This document shows positions 8,022 through 47,122 of a stretch of DNA of 64,000 bases, piece by piece. Numbering within the stretch: the first letter of the stretch is position 1; each line of letters starts with the position of its first letter. The DNA comes from Geoalkalibacter subterraneus (GTDB lineage: Bacteria > Desulfobacterota > Desulfuromonadia > Desulfuromonadales > Geoalkalibacteraceae): the NCBI RefSeq assembly GCF_000827125.1, contig NZ_CP010311.1, positions 930,001 to 994,000 on the forward strand, given 5' to 3'. The notes below the pieces were generated by a model. The model made no database searches and was not told the DNA's origin. It saw only the letters and a program-made list of their open reading frames with translations. The position numbers were made by a program, and so were the translations under genes.

Positions 8022-8218
8022 TACTGGACCTGATTAGCATCAATCTTCCGCTGGCCTTCGTTCAGGTTTTCGAGCCAAGTAAGATCAGCGGGTTTCGCAT
8101 CACCTCAATGACCACTCGCACAGGAGTTTACCCCCTGGCGGAAGATCAGTGCTAATCAAAACTCTATATCGCTCCGACCTCGCCTCCATTCAAGTCTGAA
8201 GCCGGATGGAACACAATT

Positions 8219-8249
8219 AAATATACTGTCCCCGGAATTGGGAATTCTG
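8219..8249. repeat. Possible solitary REP-like sequence
   Basis: The stretch includes TACTGTCCCCGGAATT, a motif I associate with the flanks of REP-associated tyrosine transposases in many Gram-negative genomes. Only one copy is seen in the window. The rest of the gap 8022-8274 holds only a short open stretch on the minus strand with no recognisable product. Confidence 0.3.
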
Positions 8250-8274
8250 TCGAATTTGCCGACCTGGGAAACAC

Positions 8275-9237: not shown

Positions 9238-9282
9238 TCTCGTCCTCCAAGGGTTCTTGCGCAGCGGATTTTTAAGGTCTTT

Positions 9283-25956: not shown

Positions 25957-26377
25957 ATGAGCAGCGATCCCAATTCTTCCGGGAAAAATCAAAGTCATTG
26001 GCGCCACCGCCTGCACGAGATTATCTTCGAGGCGGATACGCCCCTTAGCAAAGCCTTCGACGTCGGTCTGATTCTCAGTATTCTGCTCAGCGTTGCGGCA
26101 GCAATACGGCGAGCTGCTGGTGGTGGTCGAATGGTTTTTCACCATTACCTTCACTCTTGAGTACGTTCTGCGCCTGGTGAGCGTGCCGCCGCCCCCCTGC
26201 GCTATGCCCGCAGCTTCTTCGGCGTGGTTGACCTGCTGGCCATTCTACCTCCTTACCTCAGCCTGCTGCTGCCGGGGACGCACTATCTGCTGGTGATTCG
26301 AATTCTGCGCATCCTGCGGGTCGGAAGGGCATGAACCCGACGCCAGGTTCTGCAAGGATTGCGGGGCCGAGCTTTAA
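25957..26377 (+). pseudogene. Voltage-gated ion channel (ion transport protein) remnant
   Basis: Broken six-TM ion channel gene in three reading frames. It begins MSSDPNSSGKNQSHWRHRLH with the S1 helix (LSKAFDVGLILSILLSVAA). Then it shifts frame to [25 protein letters not shown] (S2-like), and again to [26 protein letters not shown] and the arginine-spaced S4 segment [13 protein letters not shown], followed by a stop. The pore (S5-P-S6) is gone. Immediately after, EPDARFCKDCGAEL and a stop may be the original C-terminal zinc-ribbon tail. Both ends are kept while the middle is lost. It starts 12 bp after the AOR gene, with which it may once have been co-transcribed. Confidence 0.75.
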
Positions 26378-26542
26378 TTCCAATCCAGGATGAATACACA
26401 GACGCGATGAGGCGCTCAGAGGATAGAAATATTTATGTTGATCCAATTTCCTGCCCCTCTTTTTTCCGCAGATTTTTAGAATTATATGGATTCGCCAGTC
26501 ATCGGGCCTCAAATGGTGTTCACCGAGAAAGAGAGGGAACCC

Positions 26543-26677
26543 ATGGCTGATGAACGGCTAATGCAGTTTGGATCTGAAATTGTTGAGGCAGTTTCGCAGC
26601 CGATGCCATGCCCCAACCGGTCTGGACTGCCGATGCGCAAGGCCGGGTGAACTACTACAACAACCGGGCAAAGAAAT
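26543..26677 (+). pseudogene. PAS-domain sensor remnant
   Basis: MADERLMQFGSEIVEAVS is followed, after a frame change, by ADAMPQPVWTADAQGRVNYY and NNRAKK, then a stop. The second piece is the classical start of a PAS domain in hybrid histidine kinases. The kinase core that should follow is missing; the next gene, 4 bp on, is a receiver domain. The likely history is one hybrid PAS-kinase-receiver gene with its centre deleted. Confidence 0.6.
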
Positions 26678-26680
26678 GAG

Positions 26681-27067
26681 ATGTCTTCGCCTGGCAAGCA
26701 GGGTGCCGCCCGCGTTCTGCTGGCGGAGGATGAGCCCATGGTCAGGGATCTGATCGTTATGATTCTGCAGCAGCGTGGATTTCGAATCGATGCGGTGGAA
26801 ACCGGCTGCGCTGCGGTCGAGCGATGGCGTCAGGAAAATTTCGACGTTGTTTTCATGGACATGCACATGCCGGAGATGGATGGCGTTGAAGCAACCCGCG
26901 AAATACGCGCCCTGGAACAGGAATATGGCAAACCGCCGGTACGCATTGTTGGTTTGACCGCCGACGCGCGCCAGGAGCTTCGGGACCGCTGCCTGGAGGC
27001 GGGGATGGATTCCTTCTTGACCAAGCCTTTGGATATGAAAAAACTTTTTGCAGCGATTGAGGACTGA
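26681..27067 (+). CDS. Receiver-domain protein (probably the surviving tail of a hybrid kinase)
   Basis: 128-aa CheY-like receiver domain with every key residue: acidic pocket VLLAEDEPMVRDL, phosphoacceptor Asp in VVFMDMHMPEMDGVEATREI, Thr in IVGLTADA and Lys in FLTKPLDMKKL. The ADAR and MDGVEATREIR wording is typical of C-terminal receivers of hybrid histidine kinases. The PAS remnant ending 4 bp upstream supports that origin. It could still be expressed from its ATG as a soluble receiver, but no ribosome-binding site is evident (the upstream bases are GCAAAGAAATGAG). I call the domain with confidence, but not that it is a functional gene. Confidence 0.65.
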   Translation: MSSPGKQGAARVLLAEDEPMVRDLIVMILQQRGFRIDAVETGCAAVERWRQENFDVVFMDMHMPEMDGVEATREIRALEQEYGKPPVRIVGLTADARQELRDRCLEAGMDSFLTKPLDMKKLFAAIED

Positions 27068-27088
27068 GCTCAGCCGGAAAGGTGTGTC

Positions 27089-27673
27089 TCACGGCGCATT
27101 CGGCAGAGTGAGCAGCAGTTTCCATGGGATCCGGTAAGTCACCCAGGTCACTGGGTTCCCGCTGGAGAAATCAGATTCAGACGCACTATCACGCCAGACC
27201 TCCGCGCTTTCCGCAACGGAGAACAGGGCGGCTGTCGCCTGAATCTCAAGTCCCTTGGTGCGAACATGCTCGCATAATCCCAACTGTTTGTAGTGATCGA
27301 CCCACACGACCAGCACGGCATCGACTTCCATGGGTGTCTGGGCCAGAACCGTGGCGGGTTTCTCCGTGGCAAGAGGGTCCGGCAAACTGCTGTGGGGCTG
27401 TGGCGGGCGGTCGATGCGTTTGACCAGGTAGCCTTTTTGTTCAAGAAACCGTCCCAGGTGAAAGCGCAATTGATTGGGGATATCCCGTTCGCAATAGGTC
27501 ATGGGACGCTCATAAGTGCCGCCGCGGAAGATCACAGGCTGCAGGGCGACCGTTTTAATGCCGCGTGTGGCAAAGGAGGGGGCGTTGACAGGGGGCATTT
27601 CAGGTGTCGTTGCGCAGGACACCACCAGCCCGGGCAGCAGCAGAAAAAACAGATATCGGATAAAACCCCTCAT
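27089..27673 (-). CDS. Hypothetical lipoprotein
   Basis: 194-aa predicted lipoprotein. The signal segment MRGFIRYLFFLLLPGLVVSC ends in a lipobox (VVSC). The mature part has a GIKTVALQPVIFRGGTYERP segment followed by DIPNQLRFHLGRFLEQKGY, an arrangement seen in outer-membrane lipoproteins of the LptE/DUF799-like, Rossmann-type kind. A later strand is MEVDAVLVVWVDHY. The start at 27673 has GGGAGG upstream and begins the signal peptide cleanly, although the frame is open 20 codons further up. It converges on the receiver gene with a 21-bp gap. Function unknown; the layout suggests export of a surface component. Confidence 0.7.
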   Translation of the reverse strand: MRGFIRYLFFLLLPGLVVSCATTPEMPPVNAPSFATRGIKTVALQPVIFRGGTYERPMTYCERDIPNQLRFHLGRFLEQKGYLVKRIDRPPQPHSSLPDPLATEKPATVLAQTPMEVDAVLVVWVDHYKQLGLCEHVRTKGLEIQATAALFSVAESAEVWRDSASESDFSSGNPVTWVTYRIPWKLLLTLPNAP

Positions 27674-27969
27674 AAGCGTCCTCCCATCCAGAGAAAAGAG
27701 ATACCGTAAGTATCCTGATCTTTTCTTTCTCAAGTATTATATCGCAAGACGCATAAAGGACAGACGCTTGAGCCCTTTCATGGTTTGTGGGGATCTCTCG
27801 CCTTCTCCAGGTCTTCCAGGTCGATTTTGATTGCATCGGTGCTGATGGCGATTTCGTCGATTCACTGCCACAATGTAATTCATTGTCTGGTAGACTCAAA
27901 ATGTTCACGACAGGGGTCAGGGTGTGCATTGCTTTTTTAACGCATTAATACCCGAAAAGGAGGCTTCCT

Positions 27970-28193
27970 ATGTTCATCGTCACCCGCAAGGACGATAACC
28001 GTCTCGACATCGAATTTACCGGCAAGCTCGATAGCGACGCGATGCGGGCTGCTCCTGATGACCTTGTCGCCAAGGGTGAAGGGATCGAGCATGGGCGCAT
28101 GTTCTATCGGATCGGTGATTTCGATATGCCTACTCTGGGTGCCATCGGGATTGAACTCTCGCGGCACAGGCCGAAGCCTGGCTTGAAGAATAA
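27970..28193 (+). pseudogene. SpoIIAA-like (STAS-fold) protein with internal deletion
   Basis: Begins MFIVTRKDDNRLDIEFTGKL and runs to IGDFDMPTLGAIGIELSR, a clear SpoIIAA-like start with AAGGAGG upstream. In this family roughly another 40-50 residues should follow. Instead the DNA jumps to a stretch that, in a different frame, reads AEAWLEE and a stop (28173-28193), the usual C-terminal ending of these proteins. Read straight through, the original frame continues into meaningless sequence up to 28254. An out-of-frame internal deletion that keeps both ends explains this. Confidence 0.7.
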
Positions 28194-28229: not shown

Positions 28230-28523
28230 ATGGAAGATGAAAAAATCAGGGTGAGGACCGAAAACGACAGGATGCTTGACGTTCATGTGGATAACAAGCG
28301 GGCGGATGGCATCTGGATCATTCTTGGTGAGGGCGTCAACAGCCTGAAGTGCAAGTTGACCCCTACGGATAACGGGCTGGCGTATGCCGGCAGCATCATG
28401 GGACGAGAGATTATCTACGAGCGCAGCGTCAAGCAGGTGCGCGAGGATCTTGCGAACCAGAGACAGCCGCAGGACAGGCTGCCGAGTTGCCCAGGGGGAA
28501 GCCGCAACCGGGGGCGGCGATGA
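28230..28523 (+). CDS. Hypothetical 97-aa protein overlapping yaiI
   Basis: Unrecognised small protein. The first ~75 residues look like a compact beta-rich domain ([42 protein letters not shown]...GREIIYERS). The tail ([22 protein letters not shown]) is basic and low-complexity. Its stop overlaps the yaiI ATG as ATGA, which suggests translational coupling. The last third (from 28424) lies inside the long direct repeat, so a truncated copy of its 3' end recurs at 51542-51641. That copy has no start and is just passenger sequence of the duplication. Confidence 0.55.
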
Positions 28524-28978
28524 AGATCTGGATTGATGCCGACGCCTGTCCGCGCGTGATCAAGGAAATCGTTTTCCGGGCATCCAAGAGGGTGCAGGTT
28601 CCGGTGTGCCTGGTGGCCAACACCGACCTGTCAAGATCGCATACGGCGCTGATCTCATCTGTTCGAGTGGCTGGTGACGATGATGCCGCCGACGATTATA
28701 TCGTCGAACACGCAGCGGCCACCGATCTCGTGATCACAGCGGATATCCCCCTTGCAGCACGAATTGTCGCACAAAACGGGATTGCCATCGATCCGCGGGG
28801 GGAGATTTATTCAGAGGACAATATCGGCGAGCGCCTCTCCACACGCGATCTGCTGCATCAACTGCGTGAAACCGGGTTGGTCCAGGGTGGCCCGGGGCGT
28901 ATGGGCGCGACGGATCGTCAGAAGTTTGCATCCGCTTTCGACCGGCTTTTGACGCAGCGGATTATTTCCAAACGCTGA
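28520..28978 (+). CDS. yaiI: UPF0178/DUF188 (YaiI/YqxD) family protein, copy 1
   Basis: 152-aa protein of the widespread YaiI/YqxD family, a PIN-like (NYN-related) fold with no settled function. It begins [20 protein letters not shown], which holds the conserved acidic pair. Further conserved blocks are [35 protein letters not shown] and [19 protein letters not shown]. The start is the ATG at 28520, overlapping the upstream stop codon; the longer frame upstream lies inside the neighbour. A second, nearly identical gene occurs at 51638-52096. At protein level they differ only at one residue near the end (RIISKR here, RMISKR there). Confidence 0.93.
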
Positions 28979-28983
28979 AAAAG

Positions 28984-29026
28984 ACAGGCCGGATTTCCTC
29001 GAGGAAATCCGGCCTGTTTTTTTTTT
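28984..29026 (+). terminator. Terminator of yaiI copy 1
   Basis: A perfect 34-base palindrome (28984-29017, centre CTC/GAG) followed by nine T residues. A short A-run on its left means it could also work on the other strand. It is part of the long direct repeat. Confidence 0.93.
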
Positions 29027-29036
29027 ATATCAATGG

Positions 29037-29515
29037 GGCGGTCTCTGTTTAACAGATCTCCTAAGATGCCTAAAAGATTTAGGTATGTAGGAGGGCTTTC
29101 TGTGACGTACCCCCAATCGTACCCCAAATCTTAAATGCCGAAATGGAAAACCGATCACTTCATCTCACTCCTTGGAACCCCCCGGTTCACTTCCTTGGTT
29201 CAATTCAACCCCAAACGGTTGAACTTTGCAGCGAGCAACCGCCACAAAGCCGCTCAATACCTGCGTTTGTGACATGGTTCAATAATTGGTTCAATAGATT
29301 CAACGCCAGGTTTTCAACCAACAACAGCGGACAAATTTTAAATAGCTGGTATGCTTATTGAGTTGCTTTTTTTCTATATTCTTGAATTGATCAACCATCC
29401 CGGCGGGGGCCTCATGACTTTTCTGATAGATCCCATCTCGTAGTCCATTGTCGACTTAAAACAGTTGTAGTTAAAAGCCAGTCTTCTGCACCAGGTACGA
29501 ATGAAGTGATGCCGA
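29037..29515. other. Island left edge: no gene; tRNA-end remnant and tandem 12-mers resembling integrase arm sites
   Basis: Right after the repeat, the sequence TGGGGCGGTC (29034-29043) resembles the tRNA-Leu 3' end on the right (TGGGGGCGGTC). At 29106-29129 lies a tandem pair, CGTACCCCCAAT and CGTACCCCAAAT. Such short direct repeats just inside an integrated element are typical of integrase arm-type binding sites. The rest is AT-richer, with repeated GGTTCAAT words (29197-29300), and I find no supported gene. Confidence 0.5.
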
Positions 29516-30277
29516 TCAGTAGCATGTTGATTTAAGCTTTAGCAATTCATCGTCCAGTCCGTACCGAACCACCTCGATGCGCTCGCATCGCTGTGAGACA
29601 AAATCACCGCTCATCACAGGAATTTGGAATGGAAAGAACGCCGGGTTGTTTTGGAGCATCCCCAATGTGCCCTTGGCATCCGGGTTGGCCTGTAAAGCAG
29701 ATTCAAAAATCAGAATGGCCGCGTTAGCATCGGTGATGTTTATGGATGTGGCTTTTTCATAACACCCCTTGGATTCGGAATCTTTCAGAACTCCCCATGC
29801 AACAAAGGACCGTATCACATAACGTGTATAGCGGCTAACGGTCTGCCGATCGCCATATTGCTCTTTTAAACGGCCGGTGATCTGTATCTGGGTCACCTGG
29901 TCTTGAAGTGCCAGCAAGCGACCAGTCTGTCTGGCGACATTCAACCAGAACGGATAGACGGCCGAAACCATCCCCCAATGAACCGGCAGACTCATGGACG
30001 GATTATCACGAAGAATCGCCAGTGAAGCATCCCGAAAAGGAAGCAGTTCTGAATCAGGAGAGACCCAGATCTTCATCAGATTGTTGACGACAAAGGTCCG
30101 GGTCTGATCACTTCGTTCGCCTTCGGAGCCGTTGCCTTTTCGATCCGCGAGGAACTCATGCAGCTCCTGGCGGATGGTTTTGGCGTCGAGTCCCGCCAGC
30201 AGCAGATTGGCTGCTTTCTGCATCCACTCGAAACGAATCGCCTGCTTGATGCCAATGGCTTCGTGTCTTTTGCCCAT
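29516..30277 (-). CDS. brxA: BREX protein BrxA
   Basis: 253-aa protein of the BrxA (DUF1819) family, a small DNA-binding helical protein found in most BREX phage-defence types. Family features are the GIKQAIRFEWMQKAANLLLAG region, the central segment around PVHWGMVSAVYPFWLNVARQTGRLL and the winged-helix-like RLKEQYGDRQTVSRYTRYVIRSFVAWGVLKD. It is the last gene of the operon. The ATG overlaps the pglZ stop as TGATG, with AGGAGG eight bases upstream. No repeat insertion is seen in it. BrxA is needed for defence in several systems, but its exact role is not settled. Confidence 0.82.
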   Translation of the reverse strand: MGKRHEAIGIKQAIRFEWMQKAANLLLAGLDAKTIRQELHEFLADRKGNGSEGERSDQTRTFVVNNLMKIWVSPDSELLPFRDASLAILRDNPSMSLPVHWGMVSAVYPFWLNVARQTGRLLALQDQVTQIQITGRLKEQYGDRQTVSRYTRYVIRSFVAWGVLKDSESKGCYEKATSINITDANAAILIFESALQANPDAKGTLGMLQNNPAFFPFQIPVMSGDFVSQRCERIEVVRYGLDDELLKLKSTCY

Positions 30278-32376
30278 CACCGTGTCCTCCTTTCAAACTT
30301 CACAAGGGGCACGATGACTTCTTCGATGGCTACACCGCCGTGACCTACGATGGCATCTCCCGGGTTCACGAATGCGTCGCGGCCACCGGCCACCAGGGGA
30401 AAATAATCTGCGGGCAATCCGACCGGCTGCCACTCGTGGGCAAACGGGAAGGCCCCAGCCACCTGAGCTCGGAGTTCCGGCGTGGGATAGACACGAACAC
30501 GCTCGCCGCGAGTTTCGGCAATCACACCTTCAGACGGTCGGCCTTTGCCTTCGCATTGGATGTTGCCGTGATCGGCCGTCAGCCAGACCTCATAGCCGTA
30601 ATCCAGCAGTTGGCCGACCATCGCGGAAAGAAATCCTGCATGGCACCACTGCTTGATCTGGTTGTGCATCCCGGCCGAACCGAGTTGCATGCCGTGCATG
30701 ATTTTGTCCACTTTATCCACGACCAGCCCCACCACCTTGGTCTTCCCGGGGTGGATTGCGGAGTCGAGGACGCCCGCAGCATCGCCGTCGCCAAGGCCGC
30801 GCTGGTAGGCGACATCGAGCCGGGACAGGCCATGGCCTTCCCAGAACTGTTTCCAGAGTTTCTCTTCGCTGTTGGTCGAGTTGATGGATGACGGGAAATA
30901 GAGCGGCGGCTTGCCCGAGAAGATCGATTGCCGCGATACCGAGGTCAGCGTCGGAACCCAGGCGAAGGTCGCGGATTCGCGCATGACCAGATTGGCATCC
31001 TGTTTTTGCAGAAGCTGGCGGATGGTCACCCACTGATCCAGGGCCAGACCATCAACCACGATCAACGCGGCACGGCTATTGCCGGAGTCCTCGATATCCC
31101 GGGCCAGGCGGCGCGGCACATGGTGCAGCATGGCCGGATTCGTCGGCGGCAAGTTGATCAAGCTGGAATAGTGGTCGGCCAACCAACCCAAAAAAAGATT
31201 GTTGATTTTCGATTGCAGATTTTTGAATTGAAGGAGGTTGTCACTCGCCCCTCGTCCCTCACCCCTCGCGACTGAACTTGACAGTTCGGCCCATTTCAAT
31301 GCAAAGGCGGTCCAGTCCGAGTAACGCGCTTCCGCAGTGGGCAGTTCCTTCTCGACAAGGCCAAACAAGCGAGAGATCCGTAGCTCGTCATCGTCCACGC
31401 CGGACGTGGCGATGCCGCTTCGAACCCAGGACCCGGCATCCACTTCAATGCCTTTGGCCTCGACAGGGGTGAGTTTCCCCTCCAGGAACAGGTTGTCGAT
31501 GTAGACCTTGATGTCCTGATGGTCGAACGGCAGGCGATCAGGGCCGGGATACTTGAGGCCGTATTGATGCTCGCCATCCATGGCTCGCACCGCAAGGGCA
31601 TCGCTACGCGATGTCCCAATGGGCTGTCCTGCCCATTGGTCCGGCGAATCCTCCCGTACCTGATGAGCGCTGCCGAGCCTGGAAAGAAATAGCGGCCAGC
31701 GTTCCTGCAAAAAGGCGAAGAACGCCTCATCGTCCGGAACGATTTCAGAGAGCGGCCAGGCTTTGAAATCAGGGGTGAGGGACGAGGGGCGAGGGGCGAT
31801 TTGGAGCGATTGAATCAGGCGGTCTGCCAAAATTTGAGGCAGTTTAATTTTCCCATAGTGCAGGCGCAGCAATGCGCGAAGCAGCTCCACCTCGCCCCCA
31901 ATTAGTTCCGCCGCAATGCCGAACACATGACGGAGAATGAAATCCTTGGTGGCGTTGTCGCCCATGCGATCCGGCGGCGACTTTCGCTGGGCCTCAAAAA
32001 GCGAATCCAGCAAGCTCCGGTCGAGCTTTTCAATGACCGGGTAGCTCAGATTGGGAAAGAGATCCCCCAGGTTGAACGACAGCTTCCGGCCCGCCTGGAG
32101 CAGGTCGTATGGCAGCGACTCCAGCTCAGCATCCTGCAAGCGGAGGACCACCACCAGATCGGTGTGCTCACCCCTGTCCCAGATCGAACGGTACTTGGAT
32201 TCATAGGCGTATCTGAATTCGACCGGATCACTAAACTCGATCAGGTCAAACCCGCGCCCGCGAAGCTCCAATGCCAGCTTCTCCTCGGTCAGCAGACAAT
32301 CCGGGTCCGCGACCAGGGTCAGCTTGCTGACGTTGGGCACAAAGTCGTTCAGGATGGCGTCTCGCCAACTACTCAT
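30277..32376 (-). CDS. pglZ: BREX protein PglZ (alkaline-phosphatase superfamily)
   Basis: 699-aa PglZ, the core protein shared by all BREX types, a metal-dependent phosphatase/nuclease-like fold. The catalytic-site segments are AALIVVDGLALDQWVTIRQLL (conserved Asp after a hydrophobic strand) and LTADHGNIQCEGKG. The N-terminal ~150 residues (LVADPDCLLTEEKLALELRGRGFDLIEF) form the lead-in domain. The ATG at 32376 overlaps the upstream stop by 4 bp. Two short inserts, VARGEGRGASD and IAPRPSSLTPD, are encoded by the purine-rich dispersed repeat and break otherwise ordinary protein sequence while keeping the frame. PglZ works with BrxC and the methyltransferase in an anti-phage complex. Confidence 0.93.
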   Translation of the reverse strand: MSSWRDAILNDFVPNVSKLTLVADPDCLLTEEKLALELRGRGFDLIEFSDPVEFRYAYESKYRSIWDRGEHTDLVVVLRLQDAELESLPYDLLQAGRKLSFNLGDLFPNLSYPVIEKLDRSLLDSLFEAQRKSPPDRMGDNATKDFILRHVFGIAAELIGGEVELLRALLRLHYGKIKLPQILADRLIQSLQIAPRPSSLTPDFKAWPLSEIVPDDEAFFAFLQERWPLFLSRLGSAHQVREDSPDQWAGQPIGTSRSDALAVRAMDGEHQYGLKYPGPDRLPFDHQDIKVYIDNLFLEGKLTPVEAKGIEVDAGSWVRSGIATSGVDDDELRISRLFGLVEKELPTAEARYSDWTAFALKWAELSSSVARGEGRGASDNLLQFKNLQSKINNLFLGWLADHYSSLINLPPTNPAMLHHVPRRLARDIEDSGNSRAALIVVDGLALDQWVTIRQLLQKQDANLVMRESATFAWVPTLTSVSRQSIFSGKPPLYFPSSINSTNSEEKLWKQFWEGHGLSRLDVAYQRGLGDGDAAGVLDSAIHPGKTKVVGLVVDKVDKIMHGMQLGSAGMHNQIKQWCHAGFLSAMVGQLLDYGYEVWLTADHGNIQCEGKGRPSEGVIAETRGERVRVYPTPELRAQVAGAFPFAHEWQPVGLPADYFPLVAGGRDAFVNPGDAIVGHGGVAIEEVIVPLVKFERRTR
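31243..31270. repeat. Dispersed purine-rich repeat inside pglZ (site 1)
   Basis: CTCGCCCCTCGTCCCTCACC-type sequence on the plus strand, about 28 bp. It adds VARGEGRGASD to PglZ without breaking the frame. Confidence 0.85.
31771..31799. repeat. Dispersed purine-rich repeat inside pglZ (site 2)
   Basis: AGGGGTGAGGGACGAGGGGC and a further GAGGGGCGA, in the opposite orientation to site 1. It encodes IAPRPSSLTPD in PglZ, in frame. Confidence 0.85.
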
Positions 32377-35270
32377 TGAGCGCCTCCCTTGATAATCCGC
32401 AGCATCAGCAGCGGCCGGATTTCCGGTACGATCTGCCTTGCTGATTGCAGTTCGTGCCGCCACTCGGATTCGTCCGCATCGCAACGGGACAACCTGAATT
32501 GCCGTACCTCCGGCAATCCAACCCGTTCGATGGCCTTGCGGCGCGAGGCAAAGGAGACGATTCCGCGTTCCTCCTCGCGAGCCACAGAGGCGAGATGCGC
32601 CTGCTGTAATGCGTCGAACAGCTCCTGTCCGGCCTGTTCGGCAGCAAACTGCAAGCTCTCATGGGCGGTAATGGATTCATCCTGGCCGAGGGTGGTCTGC
32701 ACTTGGGCTTCCGCTGTCTGCAGCGCATCCCAGATATGCCGGGCCGTGGGCAGAAACAGTTTGCCTTCCTCGCTCAGGAACACACTGACATATCCCCGCC
32801 GCACCATGGGAATGCGCAGGAGTTGTGTCTTCTGGTGCATCCCGGCCTGAAGGCGGATCTCAAAGAGTCCCCAGAGTCCGGAGATGCTGGCTGGCAACCC
32901 GCTCACGCTTACGCATGGCAATGGCTGGCCAGCCGCGATCTGCGGCAGGTTCAGGGCAAGCCCACGGACACGACTGTTTTCAAGGTTGAGCAAGGTTGCG
33001 TCGGTCAGGCGATCCGCTTCCCGGGCGTTGAACACGGCCTTGCGATGTTCCTGGCCGTCCGGCCAATTCAGATCCCACCAGGAGCGCTTGCGGCTGGCCG
33101 CGCCGCCGTGAGAGTTGAGATAGCCGACCGTCATCCGTTCCACCCAGTGAGGCAGCGGATGGGAACGCAGACGCTCAGCCGCCTGCACATCCGGCTCTTC
33201 GGAGATGCCATAGATGGCGGAGGCCTCGCGCACCTGCTGAATTTCATCGCGAAGCCGGGCCACCGTGTGATCGACGGAGGTTTCGATCCCGTCAGGATTG
33301 ATGATGGCCGAGGCGAACACATCCTCGAACAGCTCACCGGCCTGGGCGGAATCGAGTACGTCGCCGGTCTTGTCGATGCCGAACTCGTCGAAGATCACCG
33401 AGAGCTTCTGCTCCAGCACTTCGCGGACCCGGAACTCGACTGAATCCTCAAATACGAAATTGATCGCCTGTACGGTTTTGGGCTGGCCGATACGGTCCAC
33501 GCGACCGATACGCTGCTCCAGCCGCATCGGGTTCCAAGGGATGTCGTAGTTGATGATGACGTGGGCGAACTGCAGGTTCAGACCCTCACCACCCGCATCG
33601 GTGGAGACCAATACGCGGTGCGATTTGCGGAAGGCATCCTGGGCTGCCCCACGTTCCTCCATGGCCATGGAGCCGTTCAGGGTGACCACCGAGATTCCCC
33701 GGGCTTCCAGAAACTCCTTCAGCATCTGCTGGGTCGGCACGAACTCGGTGAAGATCAGCACCTTCAGATCCGGTTCGTTTTCCTCGGCTTGCAGCTTGTA
33801 GATCCACTCGATCAGAGCCTCGGCCTTGGCATCCGGTCCAGCCTGTTCACAACGGACCGCCGCGTCGAGCAAAACTTCAACCTCGGATTTTTCGTTTCGC
33901 AAGGCTTCAAGCTGTAACGCTAGTTCAAGCTGTTCCTGTCCATCAAGATCTTCCCAATCCTCGGTTGAAAGGGACGAGTGGTCAGGGGCGAGGGACGAGT
34001 CAAAATCTGACAGTCTCGCCCCTAATCCCTCGCCACTCGCCCCTAAAAAAGCGAGTCGCCGTTCCAGCGTGGTGCGGATCGCCCGGGTGCTGGAGACCAC
34101 CAGGCGCTGCATCAGGATCATCAGGAAGCCGATGTGGCGCTTCTTCTCGCGCAGGGCCTGGTTGTAGCCCTCGCGCACATAGTCGGTCACTGCCTCGTAG
34201 AGGAGTTGCTGCAGGTGATGACGGCTCTCCCAGGCCACCGGGGCCATCTGCGTGCGCCGGGGTTTGAAGAGCGGCTTGCCGTCGGCATCGATGGCCTTGC
34301 GCTTCTCGGTACGAATGACATACGGTGCCACCCGCTCACGGGAAACACTGTCCATATCCGGAAAGGCGTCATCATCCAGCAGGTTCATCAGGCGATGAAA
34401 GGCATCGGTCTTCCCCTGGTGGGGAGTCGCCGAAAGGAGCAGCACATAGGGCGCAGCCTCCGCCAGCCCCTTGCCGAGCTTGTAGCGGGCGACCTGATCG
34501 GTGCTGCCGCCCAGGCGGTGCGCTTCGTCCACCACCACCAGATCCCAACCAGCGGTGATCAGATCTTCGAACCGGCTGCGGTTGTATTCGGCAACGCGCT
34601 CAGCAGTCCAGCCACGCCGCTTGTCCATGGGCTTGACCGAATCCAGGGAAACGATGACCTGATCGAACATCGACCAGGCTGATTTCCGCTGGTCCGCACC
34701 TGTAGCCAGGCGCTGCAAGGTGCCGATGTCGTCGCCCAGCACGAGCTGGAACTGCTCGTTGAAGTGGGTCTGCATTTCGGCCACCCACTGGGTAGCGATG
34801 CCTTTGGGAGAGACGACCAGGATTCGCCGAACCAGCCCGCGCAGCTTGAGCTCGCGCATGACCAGCCCGGCCTCGATGGTCTTGCCTAGACCCACCTCGT
34901 CGGCCAGCAGATAGCGCACGCGGTCGCCGGAGATGGCCCGGGACAAGGCGTGGATCTGGTGCGGCAGCGGGATGACGTTGGACTCCATGGGAGCCAGCAA
35001 TACATGGCCGTCCGTGGCGCTGGTGGAGCCTTCGAGCACCTCGGCCACCTTGGCTGCAGCCGCCACATAGGCAATGCGTCCAGCCTCGATCTCCGGCTGC
35101 AGGTCGGCATTCAGCGGTCGCAAAGCGGAGCGGGACACACGCACCACCGCGTCCTGGTTCGGCAACCAGACACGGCAAACCGTCTGCCCCCACAAGGTCT
35201 GTTCTTCGATGACCTTGCAGGCGCTGTTATGAACGGTGCTGTATTGCCAAACATCCTGCATCGGCATCAT
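32373..35270 (-). CDS. brxHII: BREX type 3 helicase BrxHII (SNF2/RapA-like)
   Basis: 965-aa superfamily 2 translocase. Walker A DEVGLGKT is at residues 124-131 and the DEAH box (VVVDEAHRLGG) at 248-251. Motif III is LLLSATPHQGKTD, and the C-terminal RecA domain has VLVSTDAGGEGLNLQFAHVIINYD and the arginine-finger motif RIGRVDRIGQ. The layout matches the BrxHII helicase that replaces BrxL in type 3 BREX. The start ATG overlaps the preceding stop as ATGA. A two-part purine-rich repeat insertion near residue 410 encodes GASGEGLGARL...SSLAPDHSSLSTED, placed between the two RecA lobes, probably in a surface loop. It presumably remodels DNA during phage exclusion. Confidence 0.9.
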   Translation of the reverse strand: MMPMQDVWQYSTVHNSACKVIEEQTLWGQTVCRVWLPNQDAVVRVSRSALRPLNADLQPEIEAGRIAYVAAAAKVAEVLEGSTSATDGHVLLAPMESNVIPLPHQIHALSRAISGDRVRYLLADEVGLGKTIEAGLVMRELKLRGLVRRILVVSPKGIATQWVAEMQTHFNEQFQLVLGDDIGTLQRLATGADQRKSAWSMFDQVIVSLDSVKPMDKRRGWTAERVAEYNRSRFEDLITAGWDLVVVDEAHRLGGSTDQVARYKLGKGLAEAAPYVLLLSATPHQGKTDAFHRLMNLLDDDAFPDMDSVSRERVAPYVIRTEKRKAIDADGKPLFKPRRTQMAPVAWESRHHLQQLLYEAVTDYVREGYNQALREKKRHIGFLMILMQRLVVSSTRAIRTTLERRLAFLGASGEGLGARLSDFDSSLAPDHSSLSTEDWEDLDGQEQLELALQLEALRNEKSEVEVLLDAAVRCEQAGPDAKAEALIEWIYKLQAEENEPDLKVLIFTEFVPTQQMLKEFLEARGISVVTLNGSMAMEERGAAQDAFRKSHRVLVSTDAGGEGLNLQFAHVIINYDIPWNPMRLEQRIGRVDRIGQPKTVQAINFVFEDSVEFRVREVLEQKLSVIFDEFGIDKTGDVLDSAQAGELFEDVFASAIINPDGIETSVDHTVARLRDEIQQVREASAIYGISEEPDVQAAERLRSHPLPHWVERMTVGYLNSHGGAASRKRSWWDLNWPDGQEHRKAVFNAREADRLTDATLLNLENSRVRGLALNLPQIAAGQPLPCVSVSGLPASISGLWGLFEIRLQAGMHQKTQLLRIPMVRRGYVSVFLSEEGKLFLPTARHIWDALQTAEAQVQTTLGQDESITAHESLQFAAEQAGQELFDALQQAHLASVAREEERGIVSFASRRKAIERVGLPEVRQFRLSRCDADESEWRHELQSARQIVPEIRPLLMLRIIKGGAQ
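33971..34050. repeat. Dispersed purine-rich repeat inside brxHII (inverted pair)
   Basis: GTCAGGGGCGAGGGACGAGT on the left and TCTCGCCCCTAATCCCTCGC on the right, separated by about 13 bases. Two units face each other and could form a hairpin. The whole insert keeps the brxHII frame. Confidence 0.85.
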
Positions 35271-36316
35271 CCCGGAATTGAAAAATCGTTGTGATAAACC
35301 ACGGACGCCAACTCGACTGTCCCGTCGGCGCACTCCCAGTAATGAAGATGGAATTCCCTATCGATATCTCGACGTTGCGCCTTATCAGAGCCACGCATTC
35401 TTTGCGGGTCATTTCCGCCTGGCCCTGTCCGAAGAGCGTGTACGGCGGGAAGATTGTGTCCTTTGATAGTCTCAATGATTGATCGGAGAATCTTGGGCGG
35501 CACGGAGTCCCCTTGGTCGGCGCAAACCTGCTGGCACAACTCCCGGAATCTGGACCCAATGGCTGGAACAACCACGCCGCTCCAGTCAGGGGAATCACCT
35601 TGCGCAATCGCATTTTTGAACAGAGCGATTCGGACGGCGAGATCAATTCCAAGGTCGTCAGACGCGCCAACCAGAATGGCGGATTCATCGAGACAATCGA
35701 TCAGCCCTCGAAAATCGTCACAGACCAACACATCGCCTTCAAAGAACTCGGGCGGGCATGGCAAGACAGGGATATCGTCTCTGGAATGTTCGAGCTCGTG
35801 AATATGGGCTCTTACCTGAATTACCTGTTTGGGCGCTTCTCTTAGTATGAGCGAATGGCCACCAAGAGGTTGGGAGCAGTGCTTGCGTAGGACGGCGATC
35901 AACGTGATGCATCGGGCAAGATCGGACTGGAGGCCGTCATGAGTTGTCAGCCGAATAACATCCGGATCTGTTTCCAGATGTTCTGACAAGACATCTTTGA
36001 CCCGATAGTAGGTTTCAAAGGATGGAGTGATCGCCAGAAGCTGGTTGGCAATTCTCGCAACCGTATTGACGTCGTATTCTACTATGCCGTGGGCATTAAA
36101 CAGTTCTCTGAGTTGATCCCTCAGTGGATACAATCCATCGGCAAAAAGGGACTCTGAAGCCCGCTCGCTCATGTAAATGGCTACCCAGGGCTCATCAAGC
36201 AACTTGCTCCAGTCCAGTAGCGTGTCCACGTATTGGAAAGCATCATCCTTGGCGCAATCAACATGGGGCACAGCGAGCACGCCTGCGTCAATTGTTACGC
36301 TGGGCAGGCTATGCAT
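35267..36316 (-). CDS. Unrecognised 349-aa protein embedded in the BREX operon, partner of the AAA ATPase
   Basis: I do not recognise the family. The N-terminus (VTIDAGVLAVPHVDCAKDDAF) has an Asp after a strand, as PIN-like nucleases do, but the rest of a PIN site is not clear. The middle carries CPPEFFEGDVLVCDDFRGLI and ASDDLGIDLAVRIALF. The last ~55 residues look the most conserved and active-site-like: HALRTGPGGNDPQRMRGSD, then RRDIDREFHLHYWECADG and ASVVYHNDFSIPG, rich in His, Arg and Asp. It overlaps the upstream ATPase gene by 8 bp and the downstream brxHII by 4 bp, so it is tightly coupled. Its pairing with a DUF3696 ATPase recalls two-gene ATPase-effector defence modules. Effector function is inference. 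Confidence 0.7.
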   Translation of the reverse strand: MHSLPSVTIDAGVLAVPHVDCAKDDAFQYVDTLLDWSKLLDEPWVAIYMSERASESLFADGLYPLRDQLRELFNAHGIVEYDVNTVARIANQLLAITPSFETYYRVKDVLSEHLETDPDVIRLTTHDGLQSDLARCITLIAVLRKHCSQPLGGHSLILREAPKQVIQVRAHIHELEHSRDDIPVLPCPPEFFEGDVLVCDDFRGLIDCLDESAILVGASDDLGIDLAVRIALFKNAIAQGDSPDWSGVVVPAIGSRFRELCQQVCADQGDSVPPKILRSIIETIKGHNLPAVHALRTGPGGNDPQRMRGSDKAQRRDIDREFHLHYWECADGTVELASVVYHNDFSIPG

Positions 36317-38231
36317 CTTTATTCCTCCGGCTTGCTTTGCGCTTCATCGCCGCAGCTCTAAGGATTTCCTCGGCCTGCTGTTGGGACTGATCAAAGAACC
36401 CTTCCGGCCAGTCTGAGATGGCTCCGTACTCGTTTATCACCACCTCTCGGAAAGCTGAACCCTGTGACGGCTTTTCCACGAAGTAAATCTTGGTCTGACT
36501 GTTCAGCTCCTTCTCGGGTGTTGCCGCTGCAATTCGGAAGCGAAGGCGGTCGATGAAATACTCGCTGTGGGTTTCAACAATGCATTGCTTATTGCACAGC
36601 GCCATCGAAAGGAAAAAGTCGCCGAGCAGGGTCTGTACCTTCGGATGAAGGTGCAACTCCGGCTGTTCAAAAACGAGTGTAGAGTCCGTGTCGGCGAGAA
36701 GGCACATGACGAGGATCGGCAGGACCTGGCTGACGCCTACACCCACATGCGTGAGGTCATGCGTGCTATCCGAATTGGAAAGCCCCACCTTCAGCTCGTG
36801 CCCCAATTTGCCCTGGTCTCGGCTTTTGACTGAGCTGGCGACTCCCAGATATTGGAGCCAATCGATAACCGCCGCTTCGAGTGTCCGGGTAACTGTTTTG
36901 CGGTCAATTACCGGGTCTTTGAAATTTGCCGACGGGATGTAGCGGATCTTCTTGCTCTTGTGCAGTTCAAGAATGGAAGCTGTGTGTTCTCCGCGTAAGC
37001 CTACGTCATGTGGGTCCGCTGCTGGCGCGAGCGGATACAGCGGTTTTGGAGCATCCCTTAATGGGCCGAGGTATTTCAAAGACGAGGCGAAGAAATTATC
37101 CAGATACCAGGTAGCTTCCGTTATCAAGCGAGGTGGCCTGGCTTGGACAAAGGCATGGGTCTCGGGCTTCTCTGCCGTTGATACCTTCATGGCTTGGTGG
37201 ATGCGGTCAAAAAGATCCTCGCGCTCACGCAGGACCTGCTGAACCTTCAGGTGCTCGTCGCGTGGGAGGCTGCGTAACCTTTCATACCAAGACCTGAATG
37301 AAAGTGTATCGGCCTCGGAACCGAATAGTGATTCTTGCCGATACTTGTCCTTAAAAGTCTGATCAAATTCGATTGTGCCTTCGAGGACTTCGCGCAACAC
37401 CGCAATGATCTCTTCAGAAAGAAGAATTTCCCTTCCCATGGTGCGCCGTACGCCAATGGCACGACGGCCATCATCCTGAAGAGCCATGACGATGGCGTTT
37501 GCGTCCTCTTCGATGGTATCGATAGCGTAAACAATTCTCTCGGGAAGGAAGTGTCGAAGCATGCAGCCGATTGGCTTGGCCGAGCGAAAGTCATCCTTCA
37601 CCTCAGCCATGGAATCATCGTCCAGTTCAACAGCGTAAGCCAAACTGGCGCGTAGCTGATCGTCAAGTTCACTGGCGGTGTCAGCACCTTCAATTTCGGA
37701 GATGGCCTTAGTGGAATGATGGATCGATATATCGGCTTTCTGATCCACGTTGTCCTCGTCTCTAGATATGCAGGACAACTGCGTGGCAAAAAGCCGAGGT
37801 TGGATTTGGAACAAATCACGCTGGGAGCTTGAAGCATCAGCATCAAAGGAAATCTCACAAGCGATTTCCTGAAGCTGATTGGAGCGCGGTCCATAGTAAA
37901 CAGCACCACGGGGTGCGAACTGAGACCGCCTGCCTATTGCAGCATCCTGATCCGGAAGTGGCCGACAGGTACATTTGATGGTGATCTGATCCGAGGCACC
38001 ACCGTTGGATTTTAGGTCGTCAAACTGGCCCAAGCTCGTGAGAGCACCATTCAATACGACAGATCTTGATCCCACTTTATGGGCCAAAGTCTGTGCTACG
38101 AGAAGGACGGATTGGATGAATGTGCTCTTCCCGCTGCTGTTTGCGCCAGCGAAGATCGTAAGTGGGCCGAGGTCCAGCTCGGTCTCCTCACGAATCGATT
38201 TAAAGTTGAAGACCTTCCATTTGGTGATCAT
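36309..38231 (-). CDS. DUF3696 AAA ATPase (OLD/RecF-like) embedded in the BREX operon
   Basis: 640-aa ABC-type/AAA15 ATPase. Walker A GANSSGKST is at residues 29-37, after the usual FNFKSIREETELDLGPLTIFAG start. The distal half has the signature-like HVGVGVSQVLPILV, Walker B/H-loop region STLVFEQPELHLHPKVQ and THSEYFIDRLRFRI. The end carries the DUF3696 motif EYGAISDWPEGFFDQ. There is no TOPRIM nuclease domain, unlike OLD or GajA, so catalysis on nucleic acid would need a partner; the 349-aa gene overlapping its end is the obvious one. Its composition is more AT-rich than brxC or brxHII. It lies 3 bp downstream of pglXI. I see it as an extra defence pair carried inside BREX rather than a core component. 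Confidence 0.85.
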   Translation of the reverse strand: MITKWKVFNFKSIREETELDLGPLTIFAGANSSGKSTFIQSVLLVAQTLAHKVGSRSVVLNGALTSLGQFDDLKSNGGASDQITIKCTCRPLPDQDAAIGRRSQFAPRGAVYYGPRSNQLQEIACEISFDADASSSQRDLFQIQPRLFATQLSCISRDEDNVDQKADISIHHSTKAISEIEGADTASELDDQLRASLAYAVELDDDSMAEVKDDFRSAKPIGCMLRHFLPERIVYAIDTIEEDANAIVMALQDDGRRAIGVRRTMGREILLSEEIIAVLREVLEGTIEFDQTFKDKYRQESLFGSEADTLSFRSWYERLRSLPRDEHLKVQQVLREREDLFDRIHQAMKVSTAEKPETHAFVQARPPRLITEATWYLDNFFASSLKYLGPLRDAPKPLYPLAPAADPHDVGLRGEHTASILELHKSKKIRYIPSANFKDPVIDRKTVTRTLEAAVIDWLQYLGVASSVKSRDQGKLGHELKVGLSNSDSTHDLTHVGVGVSQVLPILVMCLLADTDSTLVFEQPELHLHPKVQTLLGDFFLSMALCNKQCIVETHSEYFIDRLRFRIAAATPEKELNSQTKIYFVEKPSQGSAFREVVINEYGAISDWPEGFFDQSQQQAEEILRAAAMKRKASRRNKDA

Positions 38232-38234
38232 GGG

Positions 38235-41090
38235 CTATTCCCCTCCCATCCGTGTTACTGCCTGGTCGTACCACATGAGCAGTTTGGGATCTTCTTCCAG
38301 GACGTTGTTGGGGATCTTGTCGGCCACGGCGACGATGACGGAGTAATCACGCTCTTGCCAGGCTTTCTTGAATCCGGCGCGGACAGCTTCCAGGCGGAAG
38401 ACCTTGAGCTTCTTCTTGACCTCTTTGTATTCCTCGAATTCCTTGAGCAGTGCCTTCTCGCGCAGCTTCTCCAGGTCGCCCGCCTTGTTGGGATCGGGCA
38501 CGTACCAGCGGTCGCGGGCTTTGGTCACCAGCGCCGGGTCATCCTTGGGTAGGTTGCGCAGTTCCTTCCAGTTGGTGGAGAGGTAGGCGTGGATCTGCTC
38601 GGGCACAGGGCCTTTACCGTCGTAACGTAGAAAGTTTTGCTCAAGCAGAGTTGAAAGCTCTAGGGATGATTCGTTTTTATTCCAGGCGCGTTGGGTTTCC
38701 TGAATGAATTGATGATAGAGATCTTGATAACTTTGTGGTTTTTCCCTAAGCAATGCCCTTAACCATTGAATAGAACTTGCTTCATCAGAAACGAAGAGCG
38801 AGGCCTGTACAATTCGGCCGATAGACATTTTCTTTCTGTCGTGCTCTGCAGATTGCTCTGGCAAAAAATACATGCCGTCACGCTCGATGAAACGCTGCGC
38901 TAATCCAATTTGAAATTCGTTACTAGATATTGGAACGGGATAACCTTTTCGTACAAAATAGGCGATCATTTGGTCGAACAAGATTCTTGGGTCTCTTTCT
39001 GGTATGAATTGAAGAGCGTTCCCCTGAACCTTTACTGTCGGCAAGTAGCTAAGATGGGTTCGTACGAAATCCCATACTCCTTCCTCTGTCTGCACTTCAT
39101 GTTCGAACCTCTGCTCGAACCCCCCGTTTGGCTTGTATGCTGAAATAACCAGGTCTTGTTTTACTGCTGTTGGACTGGTAACCGACTGAAAACTTCGTTG
39201 TTTTTTATCAAGTGCGGCCACGTTACCAATTACAAACCCAACCTCCTGCAGGGTGGTCTGAATGGTGTTCCAAACGGACGCCTGGGAGTTTGAAAACTCC
39301 ACAGTTATCCAGCGCCCTGGCTTCAGCACCCGATAATATTCTAAAAAGCAGTCTCGCATTAAACTCTGATAGTCAGTGAGAGCTTTCTGCCTGACTTTAT
39401 CAACAATCGCTTCAGGTTTTGTGTTTGTAAATACGCGATACCAAGATTCAACAAAGAAGTTGAGGTCAGAGTAATAGATATTTTCGCCGAATGGTGGATC
39501 TGTGAAGATGTAGTCTTGGCTGTTTGGCGGCAATATGGATGCACTAGTAGAAGCTGTTTGAACTGGGTTGTAGTTATTGCTTCGGAAATTTGATAGCGCA
39601 GCGACGATTCTTTTCAACTTATTGGAATATGCCGGAAATACAGATGGTTCGCTGACCATAGACGGGACATAAAAAACCCCAGTAAGAGGATTGTATGGGA
39701 ACGAAACTTCAGGCCGGTAACGATTGCGGATAGAAAGATTGACCAGATGGCTGTCGAGCCAGAACTGCAGAAGTGACTTAACGTTGGAGCGTTGTAGCGA
39801 ATTTACCTTTCGCCAAAACAATCCAAGAACATAAGCAGGTCTTGAAAGGAAGAAGTGGTGAGTGTGTGTAACGCCAGATCCTTGCATCCTGCCAACACGC
39901 ATCATCTGCATGTCTGGGATTTCTGTGGAAGGAACCTCTTCAGGTAAAGGGAGATCCTCTATTTTTCTGGATAGCTCAATATCGTTAGAATCTGGTAGCT
40001 TTTCGTATCTTTTCTTTCCGACGGAATAATTGACGAGAACTGGCACTCGCTTAGGCCTCTTGACTATTTGCTGAAGCCTAACATCGAATATGCTCTCGTA
40101 AACAATATCAAGCCGTCCCTTTTTCAGTTCAGAGCTACAATGAGGGCATGAAAAATTTTCGCGAACCTTCTTGGTGTCCTTGTCATGAGCAACATCATAG
40201 AAGACGAATTCATGCCCGCATTCACTACATAGATTTACTTCACTCCACACAACATAGTTGATAACACCTGTGCTCTTTCCATCGGTATGAGTTGTTTTGT
40301 ACATCCACTCGCATTCATTTTCGACCTCTGCCAATATCCTATTGGCTTCTTTTTGAAAACGCTGGATATCAATATTTGTATTGTAGTTTGAGGCAATAAA
40401 TGTAGCGGCTGGTGATAAGTCGTTCAAGATTGCATGGCGCACACCGATTCTTGAAAAAGGCTTCCAAACATTCTTTCCATTTTCATCAATTTCTTCCCTT
40501 AGGATTTGTCCGTCGGATTTGACCTGATAACCGAGAGACATGACCACTTCGCGGTCACCACACATTTGTGCGGCCACTCCTGTCATTCCAGTTCCGGCAA
40601 AACCATCGAACACTATATCCCCCGGTTGAGTGTAATGCAGGAGATAACGCATGATGGCTTTGTAAGGAACTTTAGTATGATAAGAATGTGCATTGTATAT
40701 CGGATCTTGCTTCCCTTCGCTCACATCCGCTGCAAATGGCTCACGATGATAGTGTTTGTCTTTCGGTTGCTCAGGCTTCTGAGCCTCCCATTCTGCGATA
40801 AAGTCGGCGATCCACGGGTTCGGGCAGGCGGTGTAATACGGCGGATCGCTCAGGTTTAGGATGTCCTCATCGCTGCCGATGGGAAAGCCTTCGATCTTGC
40901 GGAACTCCGGGTCCTGCAGCTTTTTGCGCAGCTCCTCGGTAAAGTGGGCGCGGCGGGCCTCATCGTTCTCGAACGTCATGCCGAGACAAGTCTCCGGGGC
41001 GACGTTGGCAACCCAATCCTCTTCAAACAGCTTCCCTGAGCCCTCTTTGGCCGGAACGTATTTCGACTTGAACATGCTTTCCTGCTTCAT
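38235..41090 (-). CDS. pglXI: BREX type 3 adenine-specific DNA methyltransferase PglXI
   Basis: 951-aa DNA methyltransferase, the self-marking enzyme of BREX. The catalytic motif SDPPYYTACPNPW (DPPY at 82-85) precedes the SAM-binding motif FDGFAGTGMTG (about 161-171), the permuted beta-class order. A zinc-ribbon pair (CSECGHEFVFYD...CPHCSSEL, about 270-310) follows. A second catalytic-like motif FTDPPFGENIYYSD is in mid-protein. The base composition is mosaic: the ends (about 40,780-41,090 and 38,235-38,640) are GC-rich like the neighbours, while the centre is clearly AT-richer, as if the target-recognition part had been exchanged. The start (MKQESMFKSKY) lies directly against the upstream stop codon. 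Confidence 0.88.
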   Translation of the reverse strand: MKQESMFKSKYVPAKEGSGKLFEEDWVANVAPETCLGMTFENDEARRAHFTEELRKKLQDPEFRKIEGFPIGSDEDILNLSDPPYYTACPNPWIADFIAEWEAQKPEQPKDKHYHREPFAADVSEGKQDPIYNAHSYHTKVPYKAIMRYLLHYTQPGDIVFDGFAGTGMTGVAAQMCGDREVVMSLGYQVKSDGQILREEIDENGKNVWKPFSRIGVRHAILNDLSPAATFIASNYNTNIDIQRFQKEANRILAEVENECEWMYKTTHTDGKSTGVINYVVWSEVNLCSECGHEFVFYDVAHDKDTKKVRENFSCPHCSSELKKGRLDIVYESIFDVRLQQIVKRPKRVPVLVNYSVGKKRYEKLPDSNDIELSRKIEDLPLPEEVPSTEIPDMQMMRVGRMQGSGVTHTHHFFLSRPAYVLGLFWRKVNSLQRSNVKSLLQFWLDSHLVNLSIRNRYRPEVSFPYNPLTGVFYVPSMVSEPSVFPAYSNKLKRIVAALSNFRSNNYNPVQTASTSASILPPNSQDYIFTDPPFGENIYYSDLNFFVESWYRVFTNTKPEAIVDKVRQKALTDYQSLMRDCFLEYYRVLKPGRWITVEFSNSQASVWNTIQTTLQEVGFVIGNVAALDKKQRSFQSVTSPTAVKQDLVISAYKPNGGFEQRFEHEVQTEEGVWDFVRTHLSYLPTVKVQGNALQFIPERDPRILFDQMIAYFVRKGYPVPISSNEFQIGLAQRFIERDGMYFLPEQSAEHDRKKMSIGRIVQASLFVSDEASSIQWLRALLREKPQSYQDLYHQFIQETQRAWNKNESSLELSTLLEQNFLRYDGKGPVPEQIHAYLSTNWKELRNLPKDDPALVTKARDRWYVPDPNKAGDLEKLREKALLKEFEEYKEVKKKLKVFRLEAVRAGFKKAWQERDYSVIVAVADKIPNNVLEEDPKLLMWYDQAVTRMGGE

Positions 41091-42868
41091 TAGGTTTTCT
41101 CCAAAAGGTCTCGACCTTTGTCTGTCGTTCGATATTGCTGCATTCGACTGCGCGGTTTATCCGGAATCGTACGGACAAGTAGCTCTTCTTCGAGAAGGTA
41201 ATCCAAGTAGTTTCGCTGAAAGGTTTCTCGGTGCTTGATGCCGACAACCTCTTGGATCTCTGCGCTTTTTTTGGGATCAATGCATGCATTTAACACATCA
41301 ACCACCCAACTCTCAACTTGTCCGGCGACTTGTCCGGCGACTTGTCCGGCGACTTGTCCGGTTGGCTCCCGGCGCTGTTGATCTCTGCCTGTACGATCCA
41401 GTTGCATTCGAATTGGCTCAGCCAATGCGTAAGACTCATCATCCAACGCAGTCAGCAATTGCTGCTGGCTCAAGTAGGCTAGAGCCTGGTGGGCTGTCCT
41501 CAGGTTCCCCCCTGTCACCGTACCGGCATCAATCACGGAAACTTGATGCTTCTCTGCCGCCAATGCCAGTACGTCAGCTTGATCCGGAGAAAGGGTAACG
41601 CCGAGGTTGGCCTGAAATCGCTTCATGGTTTCGGTGATCAGTGGCTCTTGGCTCAGAATCAGTTCAAAGGATTTGCCTGCCTTATCGTTATGAATCTGGG
41701 GAGGCCTGCGACCTAACTCATGCCAATTGCGAAAGATCGCACGAATGCCTGTGCCGGCCTGGTCACTGAGCCCAATACGGCGAAATGCATTGACAATCAG
41801 TGGATTGCGGATCTCTTTTTCGTTGGATTCGAGTAGCTGAGCAGGGGTGGCGAAAGCATCCCCCGGGTTCCAGAACTGGATTCGGTCGGTAAACCACTTC
41901 AGTGACGCTTTTCGGTTATGGTCGCCATAGTCCTGGTGGATGAGCAGGTTGATCGCTGCTTCGCGAAAGGCAATGTAGTCAGGCGGGTCATCCGACCTGC
42001 GCATCGTGGCCGGGTCAACTTTAAAGGGATGCTCGGCAATACGCGAATATTTGGCGACCAGACCTCGCCAGGCTTTAAACAGGTTTTCTTCAAAAACCAT
42101 CCGATCATGCCAGCGTTCGTCTGCTGACCACTGCTCAAAACGGGTATCGATCCGCTGGTAGTCGAGAACTGGACGTGGCAAGAGACTGCGAACAGAGCGA
42201 TCTTGACCAAATAGCAAGACAGCTGCACGGGTCAGAATCGGCTGGCCGTTTTTGTGAACAATAAAATTCCACTCCTGCAAAAACTCTATCGGGTCATCTA
42301 TCTGGCGTTGCTCTGGATTTCGCCGAAAAAACTGAGCTTGGTACCATCCAAGAGTTTCGGCGTCGATATTGTTATCAACATCAAGTCCAGGCAGACCTTC
42401 ACCGTCCCAGGCGTTTTGTGCCGCATCACGGAAATAGCGTTGTAATTCAGCGTTGGTCATCCGTTCATCACGGGCGGCTCGGCGGATGTAGCTGTCGCGG
42501 GGGTTCCCGTTCAGGTAAATCGGTTTTTGGTGCCGATCGCTTTCCGGGATAAAAAAAGCCAGGATGCGCTTATCATCAATTTCGTGAACGTGGGGCTCTG
42601 CATAAAGGATCTGATTGAATTTCTGCCCACTTCTCAAGGTTGTCAAAAAGGCACTATGGACCTGATCAAAGGCGTCTCGATCAACACCGCTAATCTTGAG
42701 CCCACCTTTTTCTTCCGATACACCGAACAACAACCATCCGCCAGCAGTATTGGCGAAAGCACACACTGTTGAGTAGGCATCTTTAGGAACATCCCGGCGC
42801 GCTTTTTTGCACTCGAAGTCGGTCCATTCATAACCCTTGAGGCGGGCAATTAACTCGTCTCTCGTCAT
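41090..42868 (-). CDS. AlbA_2/Schlafen-type putative transcriptional regulator with GHKL-like domain, inside BREX
   Basis: 592-aa protein. The N-terminal AlbA_2 (Schlafen-like, 'divergent AAA-4') domain has WTDFECKKARRDVPKDAYSTVCAFANTAGGWLLFGV. A GHKL-type ATP-binding module follows (IAFREAAINLLIHQDYGDHNRKAS ... IRNPLIVNAFRRIGLSDQAGTGIRAIF), then a C-terminal winged-helix region (YLLEEELLVRTIPDKPRSRMQQYR). Between them lies a tandem insert, GQVAGQVAGQVAGQVE, made by four 12-bp units at 41316-41363. The ATG at 42868 has GGAG at proper spacing; a GTG at 42874 overlaps the brxC stop and is an alternative. Such proteins often act as regulators near restriction and BREX genes. It is not a core BREX component. 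Confidence 0.85.
   Translation of the reverse strand: MTRDELIARLKGYEWTDFECKKARRDVPKDAYSTVCAFANTAGGWLLFGVSEEKGGLKISGVDRDAFDQVHSAFLTTLRSGQKFNQILYAEPHVHEIDDKRILAFFIPESDRHQKPIYLNGNPRDSYIRRAARDERMTNAELQRYFRDAAQNAWDGEGLPGLDVDNNIDAETLGWYQAQFFRRNPEQRQIDDPIEFLQEWNFIVHKNGQPILTRAAVLLFGQDRSVRSLLPRPVLDYQRIDTRFEQWSADERWHDRMVFEENLFKAWRGLVAKYSRIAEHPFKVDPATMRRSDDPPDYIAFREAAINLLIHQDYGDHNRKASLKWFTDRIQFWNPGDAFATPAQLLESNEKEIRNPLIVNAFRRIGLSDQAGTGIRAIFRNWHELGRRPPQIHNDKAGKSFELILSQEPLITETMKRFQANLGVTLSPDQADVLALAAEKHQVSVIDAGTVTGGNLRTAHQALAYLSQQQLLTALDDESYALAEPIRMQLDRTGRDQQRREPTGQVAGQVAGQVAGQVESWVVDVLNACIDPKKSAEIQEVVGIKHRETFQRNYLDYLLEEELLVRTIPDKPRSRMQQYRTTDKGRDLLEKT
41316..41363. repeat. Four tandem 12-bp units in the AlbA_2 gene
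   Basis: ACTTGTCCGGCG repeated four times on the plus strand, the last unit ending in TT. Each unit encodes GQVA. Gain or loss of units would keep the frame but change linker length. Confidence 0.95.
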
Positions 42869-42870
42869 GG

Positions 42871-47122
<4,252 letters not shown>

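Follow-up and report, generated by a model that had tools for sequence, protein, structure and literature searches.

A run of deletion-broken genes, very probably young pseudogenes, in Geoalkalibacter subterraneus Red1

In the bacterial literature, as far as the available part of the source goes, the erosion of genes by deletions is treated as normal (PMC5447742). For Haloquadratum walsbyi, the accessible portion of the report describes deletions at direct repeats of 4-20 bp that leave one copy of the repeat (PMC3119063). Geoalkalibacter subterraneus Red1 has a chromosome of 3,475,523 bp and a megaplasmid of 242,122 bp (PMC4357744), and the genome sequence used here amounted to 3,717,645 bp in total. 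We analysed a stretch of 64,000 nucleotides (contig NZ_CP010311.1, positions 930,001 to 994,000), referred to as the window, and coordinates are those of the window unless another location is given.

It was found that the segment 25957-28193 is very probably a cluster of pseudogenes, derived from dispensable, patchily distributed genes in a young state of erosion by deletions, with short or no direct repeats. Full-length counterparts were present among relatives for the ion channel (20 of 58 genomes) and the SpoIIAA-like gene (6 of 58), for the NodT-type gene (5 of 6 loci) and, as PAS and receiver in one frame, for the hybrid kinase (2 of 8 loci). Because relatives carry these full-length versions, the genes are regarded as real, broken and fairly recently so. 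The preliminary description had proposed real internal deletions, and relatives indeed carry intact genes, the reverse of a situation in which short forms are the normal genes. A broken frame or a missing essential part was seen in the channel, the PAS piece and the SpoIIAA-like gene, the NodT loss being in frame, and the genome is without an intact copy of the channel or of the SpoIIAA-like gene. The breaks within this segment appear fairly recent and are probably not caused by sequencing error. Few point changes together with several indels could also be the expected appearance of residual indel errors, for the small lesions only, such as that at the C-run near 26190. We also examined 80 loci that surround relatives of the aldehyde ferredoxin oxidoreductase encoded upstream; none of them carried the channel, SpoIIAA-like or YaiI genes.

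The first remnant (25957-26377, plus strand) was identified by frame reading and ortholog alignment as that of a voltage-sensor ion channel, with S1, S2 and S3-S4 spread over two frames, a Cys4 zinc-ribbon tail, and S5, pore and S6 gone. Read from the window, S1 and S3-S4 share one frame, and S2 and the tail share a second. We take its relatives to be potassium-type S1-S4 channels of the Desulfuromonadales with a C-terminal Cys4 zinc ribbon. The remnant resembles these in being 54% identical to residues 7-138 of the protein from locus L018 and in the retained CxxC...CxxC of the tail; unlike them it has no pore, S5 or S6 and is thus predicted to be unable to conduct. The full-length frames of the relatives had 264-619 aa, E-values of 1e-84 or better and no stops. 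None of five same-family genomes had a full-length channel, with weak matches only, and the fragment is the sole channel copy in its own genome. In an alignment of the window to 16 intact orthologs, of which one is truncated by a contig end, about 9 residues (9 columns) were missing between S1 and S2, after SVAA; a small frame change was located near 26183-26195, with a one-column gap before RPLRYA; and 368-386 bp were missing that correspond to the end of S4, S5, the pore and S6. From RILRILR the sequence passes directly to the second Cys in the tail, and both gene ends are retained, as had been claimed for a channel with its middle lost. At least three separate lesions are therefore present in one gene. 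Among columns invariant in the other orthologs, the window breaks 2 of 37 and the intact orthologs break 0-3 (of 37-40), so either the decay of the channel would be young or these positions would have been variable earlier; a relaxed constraint may be masked by the youth or the shortness of the remnant.

Downstream of the channel lie two pieces of one hybrid histidine kinase. The first (26543-26672, plus strand) is part of a PAS domain and has one frame change; the second (26681-27067, plus strand; Pfam PF00072, E 1.9e-29) is a complete receiver domain of 128 aa that derives from the 3' end of the gene. Upstream of the receiver the two frames read MADERLMQFGSEIVEAV and DAMPQPVWTADAQGRVNYYNNRA. 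The best match of the PAS piece to kinases of relatives was 69% identity over 23 residues (L079/L080). PAS and receiver were found, in that order, in one open frame at two of the eight loci examined, L107 (696-aa frame) and L083 (792 aa), with about 340-360 residues separating them. The pair had been described as the start and the end of a hybrid kinase. Internal loss is confirmed by L107 and L083; the PAS piece need not be the start, as the first 17 residues of the PAS piece gave no match among the relatives' kinases at the loci examined. The receiver ORF, having a complete domain, could still work as a single-domain regulator.

The third remnant (27970-28193, plus strand) belongs to what we assume to be a SpoIIAA-like gene of the STAS type. 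The gene is intact in G003 (121 aa) and shares 83% identity over the first 65 residues; the remnant consists of those 65 residues and the end AQAEAWLEE. In an alignment to the G003 gene, read by eye, 142 bp are missing at about 28160-28164; the gap follows TCGCG, precedes GCACAGGC and shifts the frame. With both ends kept and six relatives intact, the proposed loss of the middle stands here as well; in its own genome, residues 1-66 only were found. Between the remnants lies an intact lipoprotein-like ORF (27089-27733, minus strand; SCATTP, signal read by eye), for which no relative was found in the searched genome contigs and no Pfam match was obtained. A short conserved gene follows the third remnant (28230-28523, plus strand; about 79 residues conserved, 61-72% in four relatives) and overlaps a YaiI/YqxD (DUF188) gene (28487-28978, plus strand), recognised by domain match and window self-comparison as the left copy of a 620-bp duplication.

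This duplication, a direct repeat of 97.4% identity (28424-29043 and 51542-52164), contains the YaiI/YqxD gene with its terminator and flanks an island of about 22 kb. The end of the right copy falls at tRNA-Leu(CAA) (52151-52237), and that of the left copy within sequence resembling the 3' end of that tRNA gene; it looks as if the island may have integrated at tRNA-Leu, bringing its own YaiI copy. Within the island, a BREX type 3-like set (29516-47659, minus strand) comprises BrxA, PglZ-3, a BrxHI-like helicase, a methylase-like gene, a BrxC-like gene and BrxF, with an extra AAA ATPase (NsnB-like match), a 349-aa ORF and a 594-aa gene, presumably of the AlbA type, inserted in it. An IS1182-family transposase gene lies at 47952-49358. 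Beside the right YaiI copy, a 219-bp direct duplication (51043-51261 and 51320-51538, 99.5%) was seen at the start of a transposase-like ORF, which we assume to be of the REP-associated kind.

Two further fragments had been added to the pattern. The NodT-type outer-membrane efflux remnant (7500-8021, minus strand) fitted it, as 121 codons were lost in frame after RPDV-A: the spacing from RRPD to LS[GD]KR is 128 codons in all five aligned relatives vs 7 in the window, the junction lies between Ala codons, and the intact length is 471-518 aa in five of the six loci tried. The first 50 or so residues of the remnant gave no convincing alignment and are not clearly NodT. The pabB fragment (53131-53257, minus strand), by comparison with relatives a 3' tail of about 43 residues that precedes an intact pabC, did not fit and was rejected as a case of internal loss, since one end only is present and the gene order has changed. 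In G001, G003 and G004 pabB has about 454-459 aa and overlaps pabC. The window has an open pabC frame, preceded by the pabB tail only and then a permease, and chorismate synthase, the neighbour in relatives, is located at 407863-408928 of the genome. The N-terminal 60 residues of pabB gave no match across the genome in a search that had no positive control. Two chorismate-binding proteins each were found in G001, G003, G004, G006 and G007, none in G002 (81% complete) and one in Geoalkalibacter subterraneus; the latter adjoins trpG and trpD and is therefore TrpE. With pabC intact and pabB lost (region 52292-53257), either a p-aminobenzoate requirement or a stand-in by TrpE is predicted, and this loss offers a directly testable vitamin requirement.

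Short direct repeats had been expected at the breakpoints. At the channel junction, exact runs had a mean of 2.6 bp in orthologs vs 1.2 bp in random pairs of the same phase and reached at least 4 bp in 3 of 16 orthologs; total identity was 10.75 of 29, a value that 9% of random pairs also attained, vs a background of 7.25. A short repeat at this junction is thus suggestive only. Repeats measured 1-2 bp at the SpoIIAA-like junction, about one Ala codon at that of NodT and 0-3 bp at that of gpmA, a remnant outside the window; all these lengths are bounds, no close congener having been found that would give the exact ancestral breakpoints. A clear repeat was seen for dnaK only, also outside the window; the signal was weak for the channel, and the others had 0-3 bp or about one codon. 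Long repeats as the cause of the losses were rejected, as window self-comparison revealed none at the three junctions of the run. We propose that accessory genes with a patchy distribution within the order (ion channel, hybrid kinase, SpoIIAA-like) fell out of use in Geoalkalibacter subterraneus, presumably with a loss of selection, and that separate deletions, from about 30 bp up to about 1 kb, then arose, possibly via illegitimate recombination with very short direct repeats or none. The ends may have survived since each deletion was smaller than its gene and longer ones would hit functional neighbours; as the decay is young, both ends can still be recognised.

An alternative, which we consider unlikely, is that the lineage itself is prone to deletions, a defect or active process deleting between microhomologies unusually often and genome-wide. 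The channel, with its indels and hardly any surplus amino-acid change, would agree with this, as would similar remnants in a sample of the genome, in which 20 stretches of 12 kb were drawn and 19 used (219 kb), L207 having given no genes and being dropped. One stretch (L194, G000:C1:230001-242000) contains at 6157-9523 a stress-gene cluster with YfdX and remnants of a second dnaK and of gpmA; two of its ORFs we take to be FtsH-like and ClpB-like. In this second dnaK, 0.7 Mb away, the ends are fused and exactly 400 codons are lost relative to all 14 intact orthologs, with AAG-GAC shared at the junction and exact runs of 2-7 bp (mean 4.6), namely 5-7 bp in 8 of the 14 orthologs and 2-3 bp in the other 6. 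An intact dnaK is also present elsewhere in the genome (86114-87871). What remains of gpmA is 16 N-terminal residues and the C-terminus, about 145 codons having been lost, as read from a 149-codon spacing in 9 of 9 orthologs and the shifted register of the remnant; a shared Trp-Asn repeat as its junction was rejected, as the ortholog register does not support it. Partial Pfam matches to BCCT, aldo/keto reductase and PAS were also obtained in the sample.

Against a genome-wide process, the coding fraction was 0.860 in this sample vs 0.865 in 20 stretches of G001, and gaps of at least 300 bp numbered 32 vs 31, both sets having been read with a simple codon-usage gene finder that is crude, as it missed an intact trpG and would score a remnant tail such as that of dnaK as a gene. 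By this finder no clear excess of decayed DNA was detected in the own samples relative to those of G001. Of the coding-like gap fragments, 35 of 36 in the own sample and 25 of 28 in G001 were scanned with Pfam, and partial domains occurred in both, in numbers too small for a test. Additionally, most junctions have repeats no longer, or hardly longer, than chance would give. The suggestion of a lineage prone to internal deletions is thus unproven, gap content being about equal in G001 by the crude finder, and because of the similar coding density, a descriptive comparison, the three broken genes in 2.3 kb are regarded as a local cluster and not the genome norm. A narrower form seems quite improbable: that Red1 has an unusually active, deletion-dominated decay by which acquired clusters (this run and dnaK-gpmA at 0.23 Mb) would lose their middles through microhomology deletions before point mutations, as proposed for Haloquadratum.

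That the short forms are functional minimal genes under selection is very improbable. The receiver domain is complete, the NodT remnant is an open 173-aa frame, and the losses in NodT, dnaK and gpmA are in frame, so that short proteins could, judging from the reading frames, be made; however, the channel has no pore and is split across frames, the SpoIIAA-like end is out of frame, and relatives with close matches show long open frames and not short forms. Scarcely credible is an assembly artefact in which poorly covered segments were omitted or collapsed while the cell itself carries intact genes, since, for all the tight clustering of the losses and as judged from published coverage, the assembly was finished with 250x PacBio, three Quiver passes and Pilon with 100x Illumina to a consensus of QV50 (PMC4357744), several different kinds of lesion occur within the channel, and no collapsible long repeats are found at the junctions.

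The assembly need not be distrusted on account of these short ORFs. If the segment is read as a pseudogene cluster, the short ORFs at 7500-8021 and within 25957-28193 should be annotated as fragments of pseudogenes instead of small proteins. With the sequence of a second strain, this young decay, rich in indels, would lend itself to the measurement of deletion spectra.

Compared with the part of the Haloquadratum walsbyi report at hand (PMC3119063), the dnaK deletion outside the window is alike, lying at a short direct repeat of 5-7 bp in 8 of 14 orthologs, whereas most junctions here have 0-3 bp or are not resolvable, and the comparison here was with relatives instead of a strain pair. With deletion-driven pseudogene erosion under deletional bias, as presented in the available part of its source (PMC5447742), the run shares inactive genes that lose inner segments next to intact neighbours. 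Nothing essential differs from that description; here three cases fall within 2.3 kb, each with both ends recognisable, and the deletion-broken genes represent ordinary bacterial gene decay of a kind already known.
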